From an uncultured Saprospiraceae bacterium (GTDB lineage: Bacteria; Bacteroidota; Bacteroidia; Chitinophagales; Saprospiraceae): 53,927 nucleotides of DNA. Positions within the stretch are counted from its first letter, which is position 1; each line of letters begins with the position of its first letter. The notes under the pieces were generated by a model. It was not told the DNA's origin, ran no database searches, and worked only from the letters and a program-made list of their open reading frames with translations. Location: the NCBI GenBank assembly GCA_938015805.1, contig CALLXF010000008.1, positions 1 to 53,927 on the forward strand. Direction: 5' to 3'. Shown here one piece after another: positions 5,003-14,013 of the stretch. The position numbers and the translations under genes were made by a program.

Positions 5003-8000
5003 TTACCTCAACTGATAAAATTGCATTGGTGAGCTATTATTGGCTATAGCCAAAATAGGTTTTGCTCCATTAACTTTTAATAAGCGAGCATCACGTACAT
5101 CTCCTGTCGCTGAGATACCTGACTCAGTAGGGCTAAGAGGTCTCCATTTACGATTACCTTGGTTTATAAGTACATTACCCGTTCCAGCATCTGATCTAGT
5201 CGTTTCTACTTCTCTATCATAAAAATTACCAGCGGTAAAAAGATCTTTATCACCATCGCCATCAAAATCATAAGCGATAATGCCATAGACAGGGGCTATC
5301 TGGCTTTCTAACGGTAGCTCGTATGCGGTAAAATTTCCTTTACTATCACCATAAAAAATAGTATGTGCAAAAGTGTATACCTCCTTAGTGGTCATTCCTT
5401 CTGTCTTTCCTTCTAAAACAACCTCTACAGTAGATTTTCCAAAAACATCATAGGTCTCAAATTTCTCTGCCACAAATGGCATCTGCTCAGAGGAACACTG
5501 TCTCCCTCTCACCGGAAAAGTTTTACCATCTTCATTAAATCCTAGATAGACATCGTTAGATCCATTTTTATCAAAATCATTTACAAATAATTTAAATGGC
5601 TCTGACTCACTGGCTGGATATTTATTATTAAGCCCATTGTTACCAGCTATAATGTCTAGGTGTCCATCACCATCTATGTCTTCAACCACTACCCTATTCC
5701 ACATACCATTAGTTTTTTCTAGACTCGGCGTAGACTCCTTTATAAACTTATTACCATCATAAGAATAGATCCCTAAAGGCATCCACTCTCCGGCTATAAT
5801 TAGCTCAGTTGTTCCATCATTATCGATATCTGCAGCTACAGCACTGGTAACCATTCCTATGTTATTAAAAACAGCTCCTATCTCTGAGCTCACATCTTTT
5901 ATTTTACTTGTTGTAGTTTGTAAGATTTTACTACTTGCTGATCTTCCATACTGACCAGGTACTTGTCTCCCACCAACAAAAAAGTCCATCAATCCATCAG
6001 CATTAAAATCATAGCTACAAGTTACACCTGTACTGATCTCTGTACCCTCTAATACCATACCTTTAGAAAAATCCTGATTATCACTATTTAAATACATCCG
6101 ATCAGTAAAGCCTTCTAACTTATCTCCATACTCATTTCCACCACTTCCTACATAAAGGTCTTTTTTTCCATCTTTGTTTATGTCAATAAAAAGAACTGAG
6201 CCATCCTCATATCCTTGATGCTTTTGGAACGAAGTATTTACGGCTTCATTAAAAACTCCGTTACCCTCACTCAAAAATATTTTACCGCTATTTCCTACAG
6301 AACCCCCAATATAGAAATCATCATTTCCGTCATTATTAAGGTCGGCTACATCCATAACGGGTCCTAGGCTACTTAATTTATATGGAATTAATATCTCCCG
6401 TTTATAATCGTCAAAAGGGTTTTCCTTATACACTATATTAGTTCCTTCTAAGGAAGAAAACATAGGAACATCTGATTTTTTACTAGGAACAGAACCCTTA
6501 GCATCTGCAATATCTATAACTAAAGTTTGATTCCCTGCGACTTCTTTTTTAGTCCATGTCTTACCACCAGGAAAAATAACGGTTACCTCTACCCGATCTG
6601 ATGTTCCTAATCCAAAATGAGTATTTGACTCGCTTGTAGACATATAACCACGGTATGGTGTATGGTCCATAATTTGAAAACCAAGACTACTCATAATTTT
6701 GATTCTCGATCCGATACCCTTAGGGTTAGACTTTGGACCTTTTAGTTTGATATTTATATAATTATTAATTTTCTGATCCGCGGAGCTATTTTTATAAAGC
6801 GATGCCTGATCGTTTGTGTTATTCATGACGATATCGAGATCCCCATCATTATCTAAATCTGCTAATGCCATTCCTTGAGACCACCCTTTCTCTTTAAAGC
6901 CCCACTGATTGCTTACTTTCTTAAATGTCAGATCACCATTATTACGATAGATAAAATTTTGAATTTTTACGGAAGGTGTCTCCCCTAATAGTTTTTTTAA
7001 ATCCTCTGGAGTTAATTTCCCCTTTTTAGACTTTACAAATTTTTCCTTTTTCTTCTCAAAATCCTTATTCCTCATATCCTTATAAAGGCCATTAGTAACT
7101 AGAAGGTCTTTATGCCCATCATTATCGATATCATAAAATAAAGGTGACCAACTCCAGTCTGTATTAGATATACCCGACATCTGAGCTATCTCACTATAGG
7201 TGTTATTTCCATTATTAAGCTGTAGTGAATTAAACATATACTGATGGTGATAACCATTATCCACTAGATTCCAGAATTTCTCTGGGTTCATACCACTCAT
7301 GTTAGTCTTCTGTCGATAATTATCTTCTGCGACCATGTCTACAGTATAAATATCTAAATGACCATCGTTATTAATATCAGCTATATCTGTTCCCATAGAG
7401 AAATTTCCGATATGCTTCATGGCCGTATGGATTTCATTCTTAAACGTCCCGTCTTTCTGATTAATGTAAAGAATATCTGGTTCCTCATAATCACAGGCAA
7501 TGTATAGATCAGTCCATCCATCATTATTAAGATCACTAGCAGTGACACTTAGCGTATAAGTATAATTGGTGATTTTACTGGGTGTTGTTACATCTGTAAA
7601 TTTTCCATTATCGTTGCGGTATAGTCGATCAGTAAATTGGAAATCCTGTGCAACTTTAATAGCTTTTCTGCCTTTGGACGAACTAGGAGGCTCGTTTGCA
7701 ACATATAAATCTAAGTCACCATCGTTATCCATATCAAAAAAGTTAGCCATAGTAGAATGACCTGTATCTGCAATATTATATTCCTGAGCACGCTCTGTAA
7801 AAGTGCTATTTCCGTTGTTTACATATAGTTTGTTGGCCAGTTTAGATTTATCATCAAAATAGAATTTAGAGACATAGATGTCCTCGTAACCATCCATATT
7901 AATATCAACAATAGAAATTCCCGTAGACCAGTTATTATCATCTATAATTCCTGCTTGTTTTGTAATTTTCTCAAACTGCAAATTTCCCTTATTCAGAAAC

Positions 8001-8308
8001 AACTCATCCCCTACCTGATTACCAGCAAAATAAATATCCTGGAGACCATCATTATTAATATCTATTATTCCTACTCCGCCTCCTTGAAAAGTAGCATCAT
8101 TAAGAATTATGTTTTGAGTAGCAGTTTCTTCTATTTGATTATTAAAATCTAAACCGCTTTGATCCGAGGAGATCAACGAAAAAAACTGTATATCCTCCGT
8201 ATTATCGAGGGTTTTTTGTAAACGCTCATCATCATGAGTTACTTGATCCGATTTACATGATATTATACATAAGAGGAATAAGTAAAAAAGGGAGAATCGG
8301 TTTTTCAT
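5003..8308 (-). CDS. Large FG-GAP/VCBS-repeat lipoprotein with ASPIC/UnbV domain (CRTAC1-like)
   Basis: The 1,101-residue protein opens with a lipobox (CIISC, Cys18), so it should be lipid-anchored. It holds many beta-propeller FG-GAP/VCBS units with calcium-loop signatures of the form D-x-N-x-DG-x-x-D (for example DINNDGLQD, DMDNDGDLD, DINNDGHLD, DLDNDGDLD) in two propeller-like blocks. Between them (about residues 560-600) lies the ASPIC/UnbV signature, around YRGYMSTSESNTHFGLG. Proteins of this type are abundant in marine Bacteroidota and are often found near SusC/D glycan-uptake genes; none is visible here. A calcium-stabilised surface adhesion or binding role is inferred. The upstream region carries parS-like sites. 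Confidence 0.85.
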   Translation of the reverse strand: MKNRFSLFYLFLLCIISCKSDQVTHDDERLQKTLDNTEDIQFFSLISSDQSGLDFNNQIEETATQNIILNDATFQGGGVGIIDINNDGLQDIYFAGNQVGDELFLNKGNLQFEKITKQAGIIDDNNWSTGISIVDINMDGYEDIYVSKFYFDDKSKLANKLYVNNGNSTFTERAQEYNIADTGHSTMANFFDMDNDGDLDLYVANEPPSSSKGRKAIKVAQDFQFTDRLYRNDNGKFTDVTTPSKITNYTYTLSVTASDLNNDGWTDLYIACDYEEPDILYINQKDGTFKNEIHTAMKHIGNFSMGTDIADINNDGHLDIYTVDMVAEDNYRQKTNMSGMNPEKFWNLVDNGYHHQYMFNSLQLNNGNNTYSEIAQMSGISNTDWSWSPLFYDIDNDGHKDLLVTNGLYKDMRNKDFEKKKEKFVKSKKGKLTPEDLKKLLGETPSVKIQNFIYRNNGDLTFKKVSNQWGFKEKGWSQGMALADLDNDGDLDIVMNNTNDQASLYKNSSADQKINNYINIKLKGPKSNPKGIGSRIKIMSSLGFQIMDHTPYRGYMSTSESNTHFGLGTSDRVEVTVIFPGGKTWTKKEVAGNQTLVIDIADAKGSVPSKKSDVPMFSSLEGTNIVYKENPFDDYKREILIPYKLSSLGPVMDVADLNNDGNDDFYIGGSVGNSGKIFLSEGNGVFNEAVNTSFQKHQGYEDGSVLFIDINKDGKKDLYVGSGGNEYGDKLEGFTDRMYLNSDNQDFSKGMVLEGTEISTGVTCSYDFNADGLMDFFVGGRQVPGQYGRSASSKILQTTTSKIKDVSSEIGAVFNNIGMVTSAVAADIDNDGTTELIIAGEWMPLGIYSYDGNKFIKESTPSLEKTNGMWNRVVVEDIDGDGHLDIIAGNNGLNNKYPASESEPFKLFVNDFDKNGSNDVYLGFNEDGKTFPVRGRQCSSEQMPFVAEKFETYDVFGKSTVEVVLEGKTEGMTTKEVYTFAHTIFYGDSKGNFTAYELPLESQIAPVYGIIAYDFDGDGDKDLFTAGNFYDREVETTRSDAGTGNVLINQGNRKWRPLSPTESGISATGDVRDARLLKVNGAKPILAIANNSSPMQFYQLR
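5040..5053. repeat. TTGGC-N4-GCCAA palindrome, copy 1 (N4 TATA)
   Basis: TTGGCTATAGCCAA, a perfect palindrome inside the 3' end of the FG-GAP lipoprotein gene. It is one of seven exact family copies in the window. Confidence 0.85.
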
Positions 8309-8513: not shown

Positions 8514-8529
8514 TGTTCCACGTGGAACA
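8514..8529. promoter_or_regulatory. parS-like ParB binding site 1
   Basis: TGTTCCACGTGGAACA is a perfect 16-bp palindrome equal to the symmetric form of the widely conserved bacterial parS sequence (TGTTnCACGTGnAACA). ParB loads here to organise the origin region for segregation. No parA or parB gene lies in the window, so the assignment rests on the sequence match and on the nearby origin candidate. Confidence 0.85.
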
Positions 8530-8670: not shown

Positions 8671-8686
8671 TGTTCCACGTGGAACA
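8671..8686. promoter_or_regulatory. parS-like ParB binding site 2
   Basis: This is an identical second copy of the 16-bp parS palindrome, 157 bp from the first. Here the symmetry extends to 20 bp (8669-8688, AATGTTCCACGTGGAACATT). Two identical 16-mers this close are far beyond chance. Confidence 0.85.
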
Positions 8687-8783: not shown

Positions 8784-11120
8784 ATGAGAAGAATTCTATT
8801 ACTCTGTTTACTATTCATGGTAAGCACATTAGTAATCAGCCAAGACAACCTTAATAACAATAAGTTTAAACAACTAAAGGAAGAACTTCCTACACCTAAT
8901 AGTTATCGTTCCGCAGCCGGAGCCCCAGGACATGAATATTATCAGCAAGAAGCAGATTATAAAATGAAGCTTAGAATAGATGATGATACTCAGAAATTAT
9001 ATGGCGAAGAAACTATTACCTATCATAATAATTCGCCAGATGCTCTCTCCTACTTGTGGATGCAATTAGATCAAAATGTAAGAGCCAAAGATTCTGACTC
9101 TCATTTACTACGAGGAAGTAAAATCGACGATAATACTAATATTAAAAAGCTAGCGAATCTGACGTCTGATTTTGATGGTGGTTTTAAGATAGACTATGTA
9201 AAAGACCAGAGCAGAAAAGATCTAAAATATACCATTAATAAAACGATGATGCGTATAGATATGGATAAGCCCTTGGCATCTGGAAAGTCTTATACATTTA
9301 AGATAAAATGGTGGTACAATATAAACAATACCCGAAAGGATAGAGGAAGATCTGGTTTTGAGCATTTTGAAGAAGACGGAAATAACGTTTATGTCATAGC
9401 TCAATTTTTTCCAAGGATGTGTTCCTATAACGATGTTGAGGGATGGCAGAACAAACAGTTTCTCGGTAGAGGTGAATTTACCTTGATCTTCGGTGATTAT
9501 GATGTAGAAATAGAAGTACCGTCTGACCATTTGGTTGCATCTACGGGAGAATTGCAAAATGCAAATTCTATGATGACAGCTCCTCAGCGTAAAAGATGGA
9601 AGGAAGCCGCACGATCCTTAGAACAGCCAGTCACAATAGCTACACTGGAAGAAGCAGATAAAAGAATGGAAGGCAAATCTAAGTCATCTAAAACTTGGCA
9701 TTTTAAAGCAGAGAATGTTAGAGATTTTGCATTTGCAACTTCTCGCAGATTTATCTGGGATGCGATGGGAGTAAAAATGTCTGATGGAAGAACCGTCATG
9801 GCTCAGTCCATGTGGACTAAAGAAGGAGACTGTTTATGGAAAAAGTATTCCACTAAAGCAGTTGCTCATACAATAAAATGGTTCTCACATTACACATTTG
9901 ATTATCCTTATCCTGTGGCCTGGTCTATAGATGGCAATATGGGTATGGAGTATCCTATGATTTGTTTCAACTTTGGTAGATGTGAAGATGATGATACTTA
10001 CTCTCAAAGAATGAAGTACGGACATATAGGTGTTATTATTCACGAAGTCGGACATAACTGGTTTCCTATGATTGTAAATTCGGATGAGAGACAATGGACA
10101 TGGATGGATGAAGGACTATGTACTTATGTGCAATATCTGACTGAGCAACACTGGGAAAGAGATTATCCATCACGTCGGGGACCAGCACATCTCATTACTG
10201 GATATATGGGTGGAGATAAATCTAAAATATCACCGATTATGACTAATTCAGAAAGTATACATCAGTTTGGTAGTAATGCATATGGTAAACCTGCTACTGC
10301 TTTAAATATTCTTAGAGAGACAGTAGTAGGTAGAGAATTATTTGATTATGCGTTTAAAGAATATTCTAATCGATGGAAATTTAAACATCCTATGCCTGGA
10401 GATTTCTTTAGGACTTTAGAAGATGCAAGTGGGGTAGACTTAGACTGGTTCTGGAGAGGATGGTTTTACACCAATGATCATGTCGATCAAGCCATAACTT
10501 CTTTTAAACCATTTGAATTAGATAATATGGATCCTACTGTTACTATGAATGCAGCTAAAAAGAAAAGAGACGAAGGTCCTGTAAATATCAGTACGATTAG
10601 AAATAGAAAAGAAATCAAAGAAACTCTAAACGAGAAAGATCCAACTATAAATGATTTTTACACTTCCTATGACCCTCTAGAACCAAATGCAGTAGACGAA
10701 CAAGAATATTCAGAATATCTAGAAGGCTTATCAGAAAAGGAGAAAGAACTACTAAAAAATGGTAAGAAGTTTTATGAACTAAGCTTTGAGAATGTAGGAG
10801 GTCTAGTAATGCCTGTGATTTTTGATTTTGTTTATGAGGATGGTACTAGAGAAACATTTAGATTACCTGCAGAGATTTGGAAAACAGAATCTACTAAGTT
10901 TACCAAGGTTTTCCCTACAGATAAAAAAGTAGTAGAAGTTATTCTCGATCCATACTTAGAAGTTGCTGACGTAGATCGTAATAATAATTACTATCCTCCT
11001 AAAAAGGAGCTGAGTCGTTTTGATTTATTTCAGAAAAGTAAAAAACGTTCTAGAGAGAACCCAATGCAAAGGGCTAAGAGAGCAGAAGAGTTAAAAAAGA
11101 ATAAAGAAATTAAACCGTAG
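8784..11120 (+). CDS. M1 family zinc aminopeptidase
   Basis: The 778-residue protein starts with a signal peptide (about residues 1-19, ending ISQ). The gluzincin zinc site is complete: HEVGH at residues 420-424 and a Glu exactly 18 residues later (Glu443, WMDEG). The GMEYP segment just upstream (about residue 391) corresponds to the GxMEN-type exopeptidase motif that binds the peptide amino terminus. The family releases N-terminal residues from peptides; export suggests use of peptides in the periplasm. The C-terminus is highly basic (KKSKKRSRENP region) with no T9SS tail. It reads toward the candidate origin, against the local replication direction. The terminator is at 11171-11204. Confidence 0.9.
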   Translation: MRRILLLCLLFMVSTLVISQDNLNNNKFKQLKEELPTPNSYRSAAGAPGHEYYQQEADYKMKLRIDDDTQKLYGEETITYHNNSPDALSYLWMQLDQNVRAKDSDSHLLRGSKIDDNTNIKKLANLTSDFDGGFKIDYVKDQSRKDLKYTINKTMMRIDMDKPLASGKSYTFKIKWWYNINNTRKDRGRSGFEHFEEDGNNVYVIAQFFPRMCSYNDVEGWQNKQFLGRGEFTLIFGDYDVEIEVPSDHLVASTGELQNANSMMTAPQRKRWKEAARSLEQPVTIATLEEADKRMEGKSKSSKTWHFKAENVRDFAFATSRRFIWDAMGVKMSDGRTVMAQSMWTKEGDCLWKKYSTKAVAHTIKWFSHYTFDYPYPVAWSIDGNMGMEYPMICFNFGRCEDDDTYSQRMKYGHIGVIIHEVGHNWFPMIVNSDERQWTWMDEGLCTYVQYLTEQHWERDYPSRRGPAHLITGYMGGDKSKISPIMTNSESIHQFGSNAYGKPATALNILRETVVGRELFDYAFKEYSNRWKFKHPMPGDFFRTLEDASGVDLDWFWRGWFYTNDHVDQAITSFKPFELDNMDPTVTMNAAKKKRDEGPVNISTIRNRKEIKETLNEKDPTINDFYTSYDPLEPNAVDEQEYSEYLEGLSEKEKELLKNGKKFYELSFENVGGLVMPVIFDFVYEDGTRETFRLPAEIWKTESTKFTKVFPTDKKVVEVILDPYLEVADVDRNNNYYPPKKELSRFDLFQKSKKRSRENPMQRAKRAEELKKNKEIKP

Positions 11121-12008: not shown

Positions 12009-13070
12009 TTATCCTTGTCTTTTAAACATATAGTTATGAAATAAACATACTCCTAGTAAAATAACAGCTAATCCTTGATGCATAGCTCCTAACTCCACAG
12101 GAATAGAACCTTTACAATTTACTAAAGTAACAATCCCCAGTACTACTTGACTTATTAACAGACTTATAAAGAATATTGCAGAAACACTTTTATCATTCAA
12201 TTTTAAAGTATAAAATGATTTTATAAATATATATAAACCACTGATTGTCAGTACATAAGCTAAAGATCTATGGATTACTTGAATCAATGAGGGTAAAAGT
12301 GTATTCTGATCATAATTATTGAAGTTATCCACAGTATATTGACTTATGTCGAAAACTATCTGTGGAATAAATTCGCCATTCATATCTGGCCAGGTAGGAT
12401 AAAATAATCCAGCTTTCATACCGGACATTACTCCACCAAAAAATATCTGTATTGCGAGCAAAACTGTAAACCATGAAAAATATCGTTTAATAGTAGAACT
12501 CACATTTATTTGCCTGATATTAAAAGCGTAAAAACAAGTCCACAGCATCATAGCGAAAACTGAAATACCAATACACAAATGCATAGCCAACTTATAAGCA
12601 TTTACCCAAGGTCTCTCAATCAGACCACTAGCTACCATGATCCACCCAAATGTTGCCGCTAAAGCTGCAAGTAATATGACTATTCCTAATCTCTTTAATA
12701 AAGGTTTATCTACCCACTTTAATGCCATAAACAACAAGCAAGGAAATAAAAATACAAACCCCATCAATCGTGCCCATAATCTATGTATGTATTCCCAGAA
12801 ATAAATAAATTTAAAAGTGCCACTGGTAAATATATTACCCATCTCCATATCCAAATTTATCTTCTCATACTGCGGAGTTTTTTTATATTCCTCAAACTCG
12901 ATCTGCCAAGATGCATCAGTCATAGGTGGAAGAGTACCTGTTATAATTTCCCACTTTGTAATAGATAATCCAGATCCTGTTAATCTTGTAATACCACCTA
13001 CTACAATCTGCATAAACAGCATAAATAAACCTAATAGCAACCAGACTTTTACAAACTTATTATACCGCAT
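12009..13070 (-). CDS. ctaA: Heme A synthase, COX15/CtaA family
   Basis: Heme A synthase oxidises the methyl group of heme O to formyl, giving heme A for cytochrome oxidases. The protein is an eight-helix membrane protein with the N-terminal GGITRLTGSGLSITKWE signature and four heme-liganding histidines in the expected contexts: His96 (EYIHRLWAR), His164 (AMHLCIG), His267 (VIHRSLAY) and His331 (AMHQGLAV). At 353 residues it matches the alpha-proteobacterial/mitochondrial-type length. The gene is the first leftward gene from the candidate origin. No cytochrome oxidase genes are in view. Confidence 0.92.
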   Translation of the reverse strand: MRYNKFVKVWLLLGLFMLFMQIVVGGITRLTGSGLSITKWEIITGTLPPMTDASWQIEFEEYKKTPQYEKINLDMEMGNIFTSGTFKFIYFWEYIHRLWARLMGFVFLFPCLLFMALKWVDKPLLKRLGIVILLAALAATFGWIMVASGLIERPWVNAYKLAMHLCIGISVFAMMLWTCFYAFNIRQINVSSTIKRYFSWFTVLLAIQIFFGGVMSGMKAGLFYPTWPDMNGEFIPQIVFDISQYTVDNFNNYDQNTLLPSLIQVIHRSLAYVLTISGLYIFIKSFYTLKLNDKSVSAIFFISLLISQVVLGIVTLVNCKGSIPVELGAMHQGLAVILLGVCLFHNYMFKRQG

Positions 13071-13179
13071 CGATTCCTTTTACGAGAACAAAGAAAATGA
13101 AAATATTGATCAAAAAATTCCCCCTCTCCTTATTTATAATAATTCAAATTTCAAACTTTTCTATTATTATTATTAAGGG

Positions 13180-13199
13180 TGTTAATATGTGTACAACCT
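13180..13199. repeat. Origin-region direct repeat, copy 1
   Basis: TGTTAATATGTGTACAACCT contains the first DnaA-like box. It repeats at 13302-13321 with two differences, both inside the box. Confidence 0.75.
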
Positions 13200-13301
13200 T
13201 ATAGATCAAACTATGGTTTTCTGCTTTTCTACAGTTATTCTATTTTAGAAAGAGTATAAATAGAATCTTCTCTATTCTTAATCAGGTAATTAACATCATA
13301 A

Positions 13302-13321
13302 TGTTAATATGTGCATAACCT
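13302..13321. repeat. Origin-region direct repeat, copy 2
   Basis: TGTTAATATGTGCATAACCT is the same unit as 13180-13199, 122 bp apart, and carries a TTATGCACA box on the minus strand. Confidence 0.75.
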
Positions 13322-13554
13322 AGTGTGGAATATAATTATAAAAGGTGATTACTGTATAACACCTTTACAAGCTCTGAAAAAATGACTACAAAAAATACAT
13401 ATATATATAATTTATATATTTTAGATGGCGATTGTCTATTACTCTGAGCTTATACACAGTTATTCACTAAATCTTTGTGTATAAAGAATAAATAGTCCTT
13501 CTGAAAATAAGATATTTACACTTTATATAAAAACATAATGTTTATAACTATCCT

Positions 13555-14013
13555 ATGCGGGTAATCGTACAACGAGTATTGCAATCTTCTGTAAGTATAG
13601 ATAACAAGGTGCACAATGCCATAGAACAAGGTATTTTATTGTTACTCGGAATAGAAAATAATGATAGTACGGAAGATATAAACTGGCTAATTCAAAAAGT
13701 TATTAATCTAAGGATATTTAATGACGATCAAGGAAGAATGAATATTTCTATAAAAGATATGGGAGGGAGTATTTTAGTAATTTCTCAGTTTACATTGTAT
13801 GCATCTACTAAGAAAGGAAACCGACCTTCTTATATAGCTGCAGCTAAACCGGGTATAGCTATTCCGCTATACGAGGATTTTGTAGATAGATTATCATTAG
13901 AAATAGGAGTTGATCAGGTAAAAACTGGAATATTCGGAGCAGATATGAAAATATCTTTAATAAATGATGGTCCAGTTACTATAATTATGGACAGTAAAAA
14001 TAAAGACTTTTAA
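13555..14013 (+). CDS. dtd: D-aminoacyl-tRNA deacylase
   Basis: Dtd hydrolyses D-amino acids (and glycine mischarged on tRNA-Ala) from tRNA. The 152-residue length is typical. Both family motifs are intact: SQFTL at residues 77-81 and N-x-GPVT at 137-142, which form the chiral proofreading site across the dimer. It is the first rightward gene next to the candidate origin and is followed after 1 bp by the MazG-like gene, so the two are probably cotranscribed. Confidence 0.95.
   Translation: MRVIVQRVLQSSVSIDNKVHNAIEQGILLLLGIENNDSTEDINWLIQKVINLRIFNDDQGRMNISIKDMGGSILVISQFTLYASTKKGNRPSYIAAAKPGIAIPLYEDFVDRLSLEIGVDQVKTGIFGADMKISLINDGPVTIIMDSKNKDF

Follow-up and report, generated by a model that had tools for sequence, protein, structure and literature searches.

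The ctaA–dtd gap and its DnaA boxes

The window, that is, the whole 53.9-kb stretch of DNA analysed here, is contig C8 of a 3,585,413-bp, 118-contig draft genome of a member of the Saprospiraceae. It contains a non-coding gap from which ctaA and dtd diverge, proposed in an earlier note as a candidate replication origin; the non-coding character, the length of 484 bp and the divergent flanking genes described there were all confirmed. Below, a near-box is a 9-mer with at most one mismatch to TTATNCACA.

12009–13070, minus strand: ctaA, heme A synthase (COX15/CtaA; PF02628 over cut-off, E 7.3e-84; NF045570 below cut-off)
13071–13554, no strand: candidate oriC, 484 bp of non-coding DNA (75% A+T) from which ctaA and dtd diverge
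13188–13196, minus strand: DnaA box TTGTACACA, box 1 of the conserved core (at most one mismatch to TTATNCACA)
13302–13318, minus strand: tandem box pair, TTATGCACA at 13310–13318 and ATATTAACA at 13302–13310, inside the second copy of a 20-bp repeat
13377–13426, no strand: least stable 50-bp segment of the gap, including the AT-only tract 13399–13423 (stability scan)
13450–13458, plus strand: DnaA box TTATACACA (box scan)
13460–13468, plus strand: DnaA box TTATTCACT, one mismatch (box scan)
13476–13484, minus strand: DnaA box TTATACACA (box scan)
13539–13547, minus strand: weak DnaA box TTATAAACA, one mismatch (box scan)
13555–14013, plus strand: dtd, D-aminoacyl-tRNA deacylase (TIGR00256 over cut-off)

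A DnaA-box cluster in non-coding DNA, parS sites clustered nearby and a strand-composition minimum were the features by which we judged the gap as an oriC; linkage to dnaA marks the classical arrangement. The box cluster is present: there are six near-boxes, three exact and three with one mismatch, comprising the five box-like 9-mers noted previously (three of them exact) and the weak sixth at 13539–13547. Among 5,000 dinucleotide shuffles of the gap, none had three exact boxes, four had two, and a single one reached six or more near-boxes. The window has 11 ORF-free stretches of at least 120 bp, and the ten others hold zero or one near-box each against six in the gap; the contrast in density is smaller, with five near-boxes in the best 350 bp of the gap and four near 51.2 kb, the next densest place. 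Genome-wide, TTATNCACA shows no excess (142 occurrences versus 135 for the reversed control), and this count was dropped as an origin indicator. The single 9-mer is uninformative at genome scale; clustering is the signal.

The least stable 50-mer of the gap, 13377–13426, is undercut at only two 50-mer positions in the whole window and is a possible second melting site.

A conserved unwinding core at the ctaA end

Side-by-side reading of the gaps of relatives revealed a shared element at the ctaA end, which the earlier note had not listed.

13155–13200, minus strand: conserved 46-bp core resembling a Basal Unwinding System, BUS (cross-genus matrix, profile R1, alignment A1)
13180–13188, minus strand: DnaA box 2 of the core, degenerate ATATTAACA, at an 8-bp offset and with a one-base overlap with box 1 (same offset in the aligned cores)
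13177–13179, minus strand: CCC spacer of the core (sequence reading)
13162–13176, minus strand: five DnaA-trios, TTA ATA ATA ATA ATA on the box strand and 3'-AAT TAT TAT TAT TAT-5' on the other

Along the minus strand the core runs from TTGTACACA through the overlapping ATATTAACA and CCC into TTA ATA ATA ATA ATA; the following triplet, 13159–13161, does not fit a sixth trio. The published BUS rule calls for three or more trios of the form 3'-NAN-5' no farther than 16 bp from a box; spacer lengths peak at 10–13 bp, and the boxes are mostly tandem (Pelliciari 2021, PMC8287927). The core has five such trios, at a spacer of 11 bp from box 1. Because the rule alone is easily satisfied by chance in AT-rich DNA (a judgement, not a computed value), it is conservation that carries weight.

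The search for the core started from seven seeds picked by eye, with cores taken from fixed stretches. A leave-one-out matrix recovered the core in 15 of 16 gaps at 16–42 bits, the second-best sites there scoring at most 12. These 15 form alignment A1, without L053, which had no core at that point and a weak one of 17.4 bits in a later pass; a further alignment, A3, left out 5 of 57 sources (L043, L055 and L023 as duplicate cores, L053 and L009 as weak) and tightened the threshold. With a 12-core matrix built without the window's genus, 13155–13200 is the top site in the 53.9 kb, at 28.4 bits versus 9.3 for the next. The same genus-less matrix scores the core on contig C15 of G052, from the window's genus, at 29.1 bits versus 16.1 for the next site. 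A matrix without G047:C45 gave 27.3 versus 12.2 bits there, and with both G062 and G057 left out the scores in sampled sequence were 25.6 versus 12.8 in G062 and 42.2 versus 14.0 in G057.

The trio register is conserved in relatives, in rows chosen by a profile that expects this register. In the alignment of 56 distinct rows, T occupies the central position of successive trios (columns 26, 29, 32 and 35) at 98, 100, 93 and 85%; in the 41 rows outside the 15 training cores it does so in 40, 41, 38 and 33, these rows too being picked by a profile expecting T. Starting with the second trio, the conserved T usually follows an A, and the base after it is A or G. The commonest first trio is 3'-GAT-5' (23 of 56 rows), the window core has 3'-AAT-5', and the second and third trios of the aligned rows are mostly 3'-TAY-5'.

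The AT-only tract that had been placed at about 13395–13423 does exist, with exact limits 13399–13423, but the conserved core lies at 13155–13200, at the ctaA end, and not near 13400. The 20-bp direct repeats reported earlier were located at 13180–13199 and 13302–13321, identical at 18 of 20 positions. The second copy is a near-copy of the core box pair, 122 bp away and with a better first box; inspection of the sequence beside its pair at 13302–13318 showed no trio run.

Distribution of the core and its neighbours

Searched against the window's own genome, profile R1 finds the core and nothing else at E ≤ 0.05 (E 1.5e-7). Within the Saprospiraceae it matches 94 of 120 genomes at E ≤ 0.05 and 67 at E ≤ 0.001, leaving 26 without a match at the looser threshold; about 6 of 120 would be expected by chance at E 0.05 if the rough calibration holds, and the R1 model was itself built in part from at least nine of these 120 genomes. 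At the 30 best R1 loci, ctaA adjoins the core in 29, and dtd lies within the 1.5-kb flank in 15, including the one locus that lacks ctaA. Of the two genes between which the earlier note placed the origin, ctaA is the neighbour that stays constant in the family; the other flank varies and is only sometimes dtd.

As an origin marker dtd was rejected: it is not a constant neighbour, because in G248, G125, G127 and G057 it lies 0.20–0.26 Mb from the nearest parS. At 13 loci (the window's own included and G052 counted once) where the end of ctaA and dtd are at most 1 kb apart, 4–9 near-boxes fall in the 500 bp preceding dtd; at six loci where that distance is 1.25–1.4 kb, the number is 0–3. In G062 and G057 the core adjoins ctaA, and the other flank is an SRAP-family gene (PF02586), not dtd. 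A second profile, R2, matched all 11 chosen genomes at E ≤ 0.05, with ctaA beside the best match in each of the ten other than the window's own. G052, G150 and G248 each have a second, weak R2 match (E 0.03–0.04), that of G052 having neither ctaA nor dtd nearby.

Class-wide, R2 matched 18 of 295 genomes at E ≤ 0.001 (16 outside the Saprospiraceae, 2 inside) and R1 matched 12 (10 outside, 2 inside), so that at this threshold a core of this form does not extend to the class as a whole; strict filters may miss some of the 277 genomes in which R2 had no match. The R2 matches outside the family include four of the six listed genomes of a second family in the same order. Neighbours of the core differ there, with nadA at L246, rpiB at L248 and pheS at L253 assigned by Pfam, and nadA-like genes at L244 and L252 and rpiB-like genes at L249 and L250 recognized by reading only. 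The R1 cores outside the family have 2–13 near-boxes within 600 bp, and in sampled sequence of G507, from another family, the core scores 33.7 versus 13.1 for the next site.

R2 had no match at E ≤ 1 in 12 dtd loci, mostly of Bacteroidales or their genera. Six loci, also mostly from Bacteroidales genera (L027, L047, L050, L061, L074 and L078), have a parS-like site with at most two mismatches 1.9–2.8 kb upstream of dtd. Such sites upstream of dtd, in places where R2 finds no core, are a hint that an origin near dtd may predate the Saprospiraceae.

dnaA lies away from the core

The dnaA gene is on contig C98 and not on the window's contig, and the DnaA that it encodes has all three Pfam DnaA domains and the DHTT motif. 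The 40 kb of C98 around it, made up of 30 kb to one side of the gene and the 8.6 kb that remain before the contig ends, contain no exact box, and their densest 450 bp hold three near-boxes. A better box cluster next to dnaA, which the earlier note had named as an argument against the gap, was not seen in these 40 kb, and the classical dnaA-linked arrangement of oriC was not found. Judged from the draft alone, C8 and C98 could adjoin. In G052, the contig with the core has 40 kb on its left and 136 kb on its right, and dnaA is on a different contig.

Relatives assembled into one to four contigs allow distances to be expressed on a circle, for which we used the main contig. The distance from dnaA to the core is 16% of the circle in G127, 20% in G248, 31% in G062, 45% in G125, and 47% in G057 and G216. 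Contig 1 starts at dnaA in six of the seven such relatives with a dnaA position, the exception being G127; in these six (G216, G057, G259, G062, G248 and G125) the dnaA match falls at bases 427–617, and core and parS lie megabases off. Six of seven being numbered from dnaA although core and parS are far away, the result matters for the default of placing the origin at dnaA.

parS sites and strand composition

The surroundings of the gap on the ctaA side contain two parS sites and an adjoining gene.

8514–8529, no strand: parS site TGTTCCACGTGGAACA (genome-wide pattern search)
8671–8686, no strand: parS site TGTTCCACGTGGAACA (genome-wide pattern search)
8784–11120, plus strand: M1-family peptidase gene adjoining parS (PF01433 over cut-off)

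At one mismatch or fewer, TGTTCCACGTGGAACA has only these two sites in the 3.59-Mb genome, and the control pattern has none; the two parS-like sites previously put 4.5–5 kb from the gap are confirmed, 4.5 kb away and the only pair found in the genome. In ten chosen genomes with parS positions (G152 not among them), the nearest parS lies 1.9–30.3 kb from the best core, and parS is clustered near the candidate origin in relatives as it is in the window's own genome. The distance is 28–30 kb in G248 and G127 (genus g22) and shorter in the eight remaining genomes; a single stray parS with one mismatch lies 1.9 Mb away in G216. Exact parS is absent from 178 of 398 genomes. ParABS origin domains have the parS consensus TGTTTCACGTGAAACA. 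The window resembles such a domain in having perfect parS palindromes only near the candidate origin, and TGTTCCACGTGGAACA, which differs from the consensus at two bases, is a putative ParB site.

Homologues of the M1-family peptidase are found at parS or at most 1.6 kb from it in G062 and G057. On the other side of the parS pair, the minus-strand ORF 5003–8308 (1101 aa) encodes a protein with FG-GAP repeats and an ASPIC/UnbV domain (PF13517, PF07593) and has no NCBIfam match.

The cumulative G−C minimum of the window falls at 13553, the penultimate base of the gap, in a window that has only 13 kb to the left of the gap and whose skew there partly follows gene strand. Left of the gap, genes of either strand have negative third-codon skew (−0.052 and −0.201, from eight genes only); right of it, both strands are positive (+0.189 and +0.118). 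All four signs recur in G052:C15, which has more genes, although there the cumulative minimum and the core are 13 kb apart and the 10-kb skew returns to negative values at 100–150 kb. Several measures go against a turn at the core: G047:C45 has none there, its right side being about zero or negative; intergenic skew in the window hardly differs between the two sides of the gap (−0.035 and −0.016); and the window's minima in purine and keto composition, at 8254 and 28003, are away from the gap.

For relatives we compared the signs of sampled 20-kb stretches with an origin at the core and a terminus placed to fit. The fit was 20 of 20 stretches in G062 (7,507,556 bp), 16 of 20 in G057 (4,345,237 bp) and 10 of 11 in G216 (4,185,531 bp); it was 16 of 20 in G125 (8,371,686 bp) and 13 of 16 in G507 (5,079,621 bp, another family), two genomes in which skew is weak and many values are near zero. 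A freely chosen origin fits no better in G062, G057, G216 and G507, and fits 17 of 20 in G125. A strand-composition minimum at the gap is seen in the G−C measure of the window, and the sampled chromosomes of relatives fit a turn at the core, those of G125 and G507 more weakly. The earlier note had allowed that a GC-skew minimum elsewhere would speak against the gap; the window minimum at 13553 and the sampled skew of relatives, which fits the homologous site, do not bear this out.

A proposed origin and its alternatives

The box cluster, parS sites, skew and conserved core support the earlier proposal, and the gap 13071–13554 is very probably the chromosomal replication origin. We propose that DnaA, encoded elsewhere on the chromosome, would bind the boxes of the gap, nucleate on the tandem pair 13180–13196 and then extend along the trio strand at 13162–13176. 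AT-rich DNA would be melted towards ctaA, where helicase would be loaded and from where two forks would depart; an accessory role is probable for the box pair 13302–13318, the AT tract near 13400 and the boxes 13450–13484. Segregation of the origin region would fall to ParB bound at the two parS sites, 4.5 kb from the gap. Judged from sequence elements, conservation, position and the strand-composition turn, this proposal as a whole, with oriC in the gap, a distant dnaA, melting of the core towards ctaA and ParB-directed segregation, is in our estimate highly likely.

The gap is also a divergent promoter region, and its boxes might instead belong to a DnaA-regulated divergent promoter or to a DnaA-titration site of the datA type, with the origin elsewhere. 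A second dense box cluster in G057 lends this some substance: at about 2044953–2045500 of its contig 1 (L204), 15 near-boxes in 500 bp are interleaved with parS, 7.4 kb from the core cluster. Its role may be titration, or it may be where DnaA and ParB meet, and dense clusters without the core therefore exist in the family. A titration site, however, is not expected to have a trio run, nearby parS and a skew turn; in relatives the same core sits at the fitted skew turn, and it stays with ctaA while the gene on the opposite flank changes. We regard this reading as very improbable. Chance clustering in an AT-rich gap, or the relic of a former origin, would agree with the lack of a genome-wide excess of the 9-mer, but three exact boxes appeared in none of the 5,000 shuffles, the cross-genus core score is 28.4 versus 9.3, and strand composition turns at the gap, so that we give this explanation almost no credence.

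A variant that overlaps with our proposal keeps the origin in the gap and moves melting to the AT tract 13377–13426 with the boxes 13450–13484, making the ctaA-side core an accessory. The segment is the least stable 50-mer of the gap and three boxes lie beside the tract, whereas the trio run and the conserved 3-bp periodicity at 13162–13176 argue for melting from the core; this variant appears unlikely, and melting from the ctaA-side core is the reading that we prefer.

Relation to known systems and implications

Two elements are already known: Bacteroidetes origins distant from dnaA (PMC4755523) and the BUS module (PMC8287927). The former, with reference to DoriC, describes Bacteroidetes oriC as commonly far from dnaA; like the origin of Prevotella intermedia OMA14, which is from a different family, and the Bacteroidetes origins in DoriC (PMC4755523), the gap combines a box cluster at a GC-skew transition with a position away from dnaA. 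With the Bacillus subtilis BUS it shares tandem boxes, a short G+C spacer and at least three trios, and its 11-bp spacer is within the 10–13 peak. The trio given as most frequent next to the box, 3'-GAT-5' (PMC8287927), is also the commonest first trio in the aligned relatives (23 of 56). In contrast, the window's first trio is 3'-AAT-5', the second and third trios of relatives are mostly 3'-TAY-5', and the origin proposed here is not beside dnaA. What the present analysis adds is the exact core, its tie to ctaA in the Saprospiraceae and a profile that finds the core in drafts. Our literature search, with most subscription journals outside its reach, returned nothing on a Saprospiraceae replication origin and dnaA, nothing joining oriC, Haliscomenobacter and dnaA, and nothing joining Bacteroidetes with the DnaA-trio; we make no claim of absence from print.

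More tentatively, and with somewhat less than even confidence, we suggest that one portable unwinding module occurs both in the Saprospiraceae and in some other Bacteroidia. It would consist of a box pair with a one-base overlap, a short G+C-rich spacer and a first trio that is often 3'-GAT-5' or 3'-GAC-5', followed by 3'-TAY-5', and would be fixed beside ctaA in the Saprospiraceae, with dnaA as far away as the terminus half (47% in G057 and G216). If this is true, the supply of DnaA would no longer be tied to origin copy number, and where the dnaA rule fails, origins would be located by means of the module alone. The core offers a direct test case for a Bacillus-type unwinding module in Bacteroidota. 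For the Saprospiraceae, our results argue against the default of an origin at dnaA, and a 46-bp profile that finds origins in fragmented genomes could allow growth to be read from coverage in uncultured members of the family.
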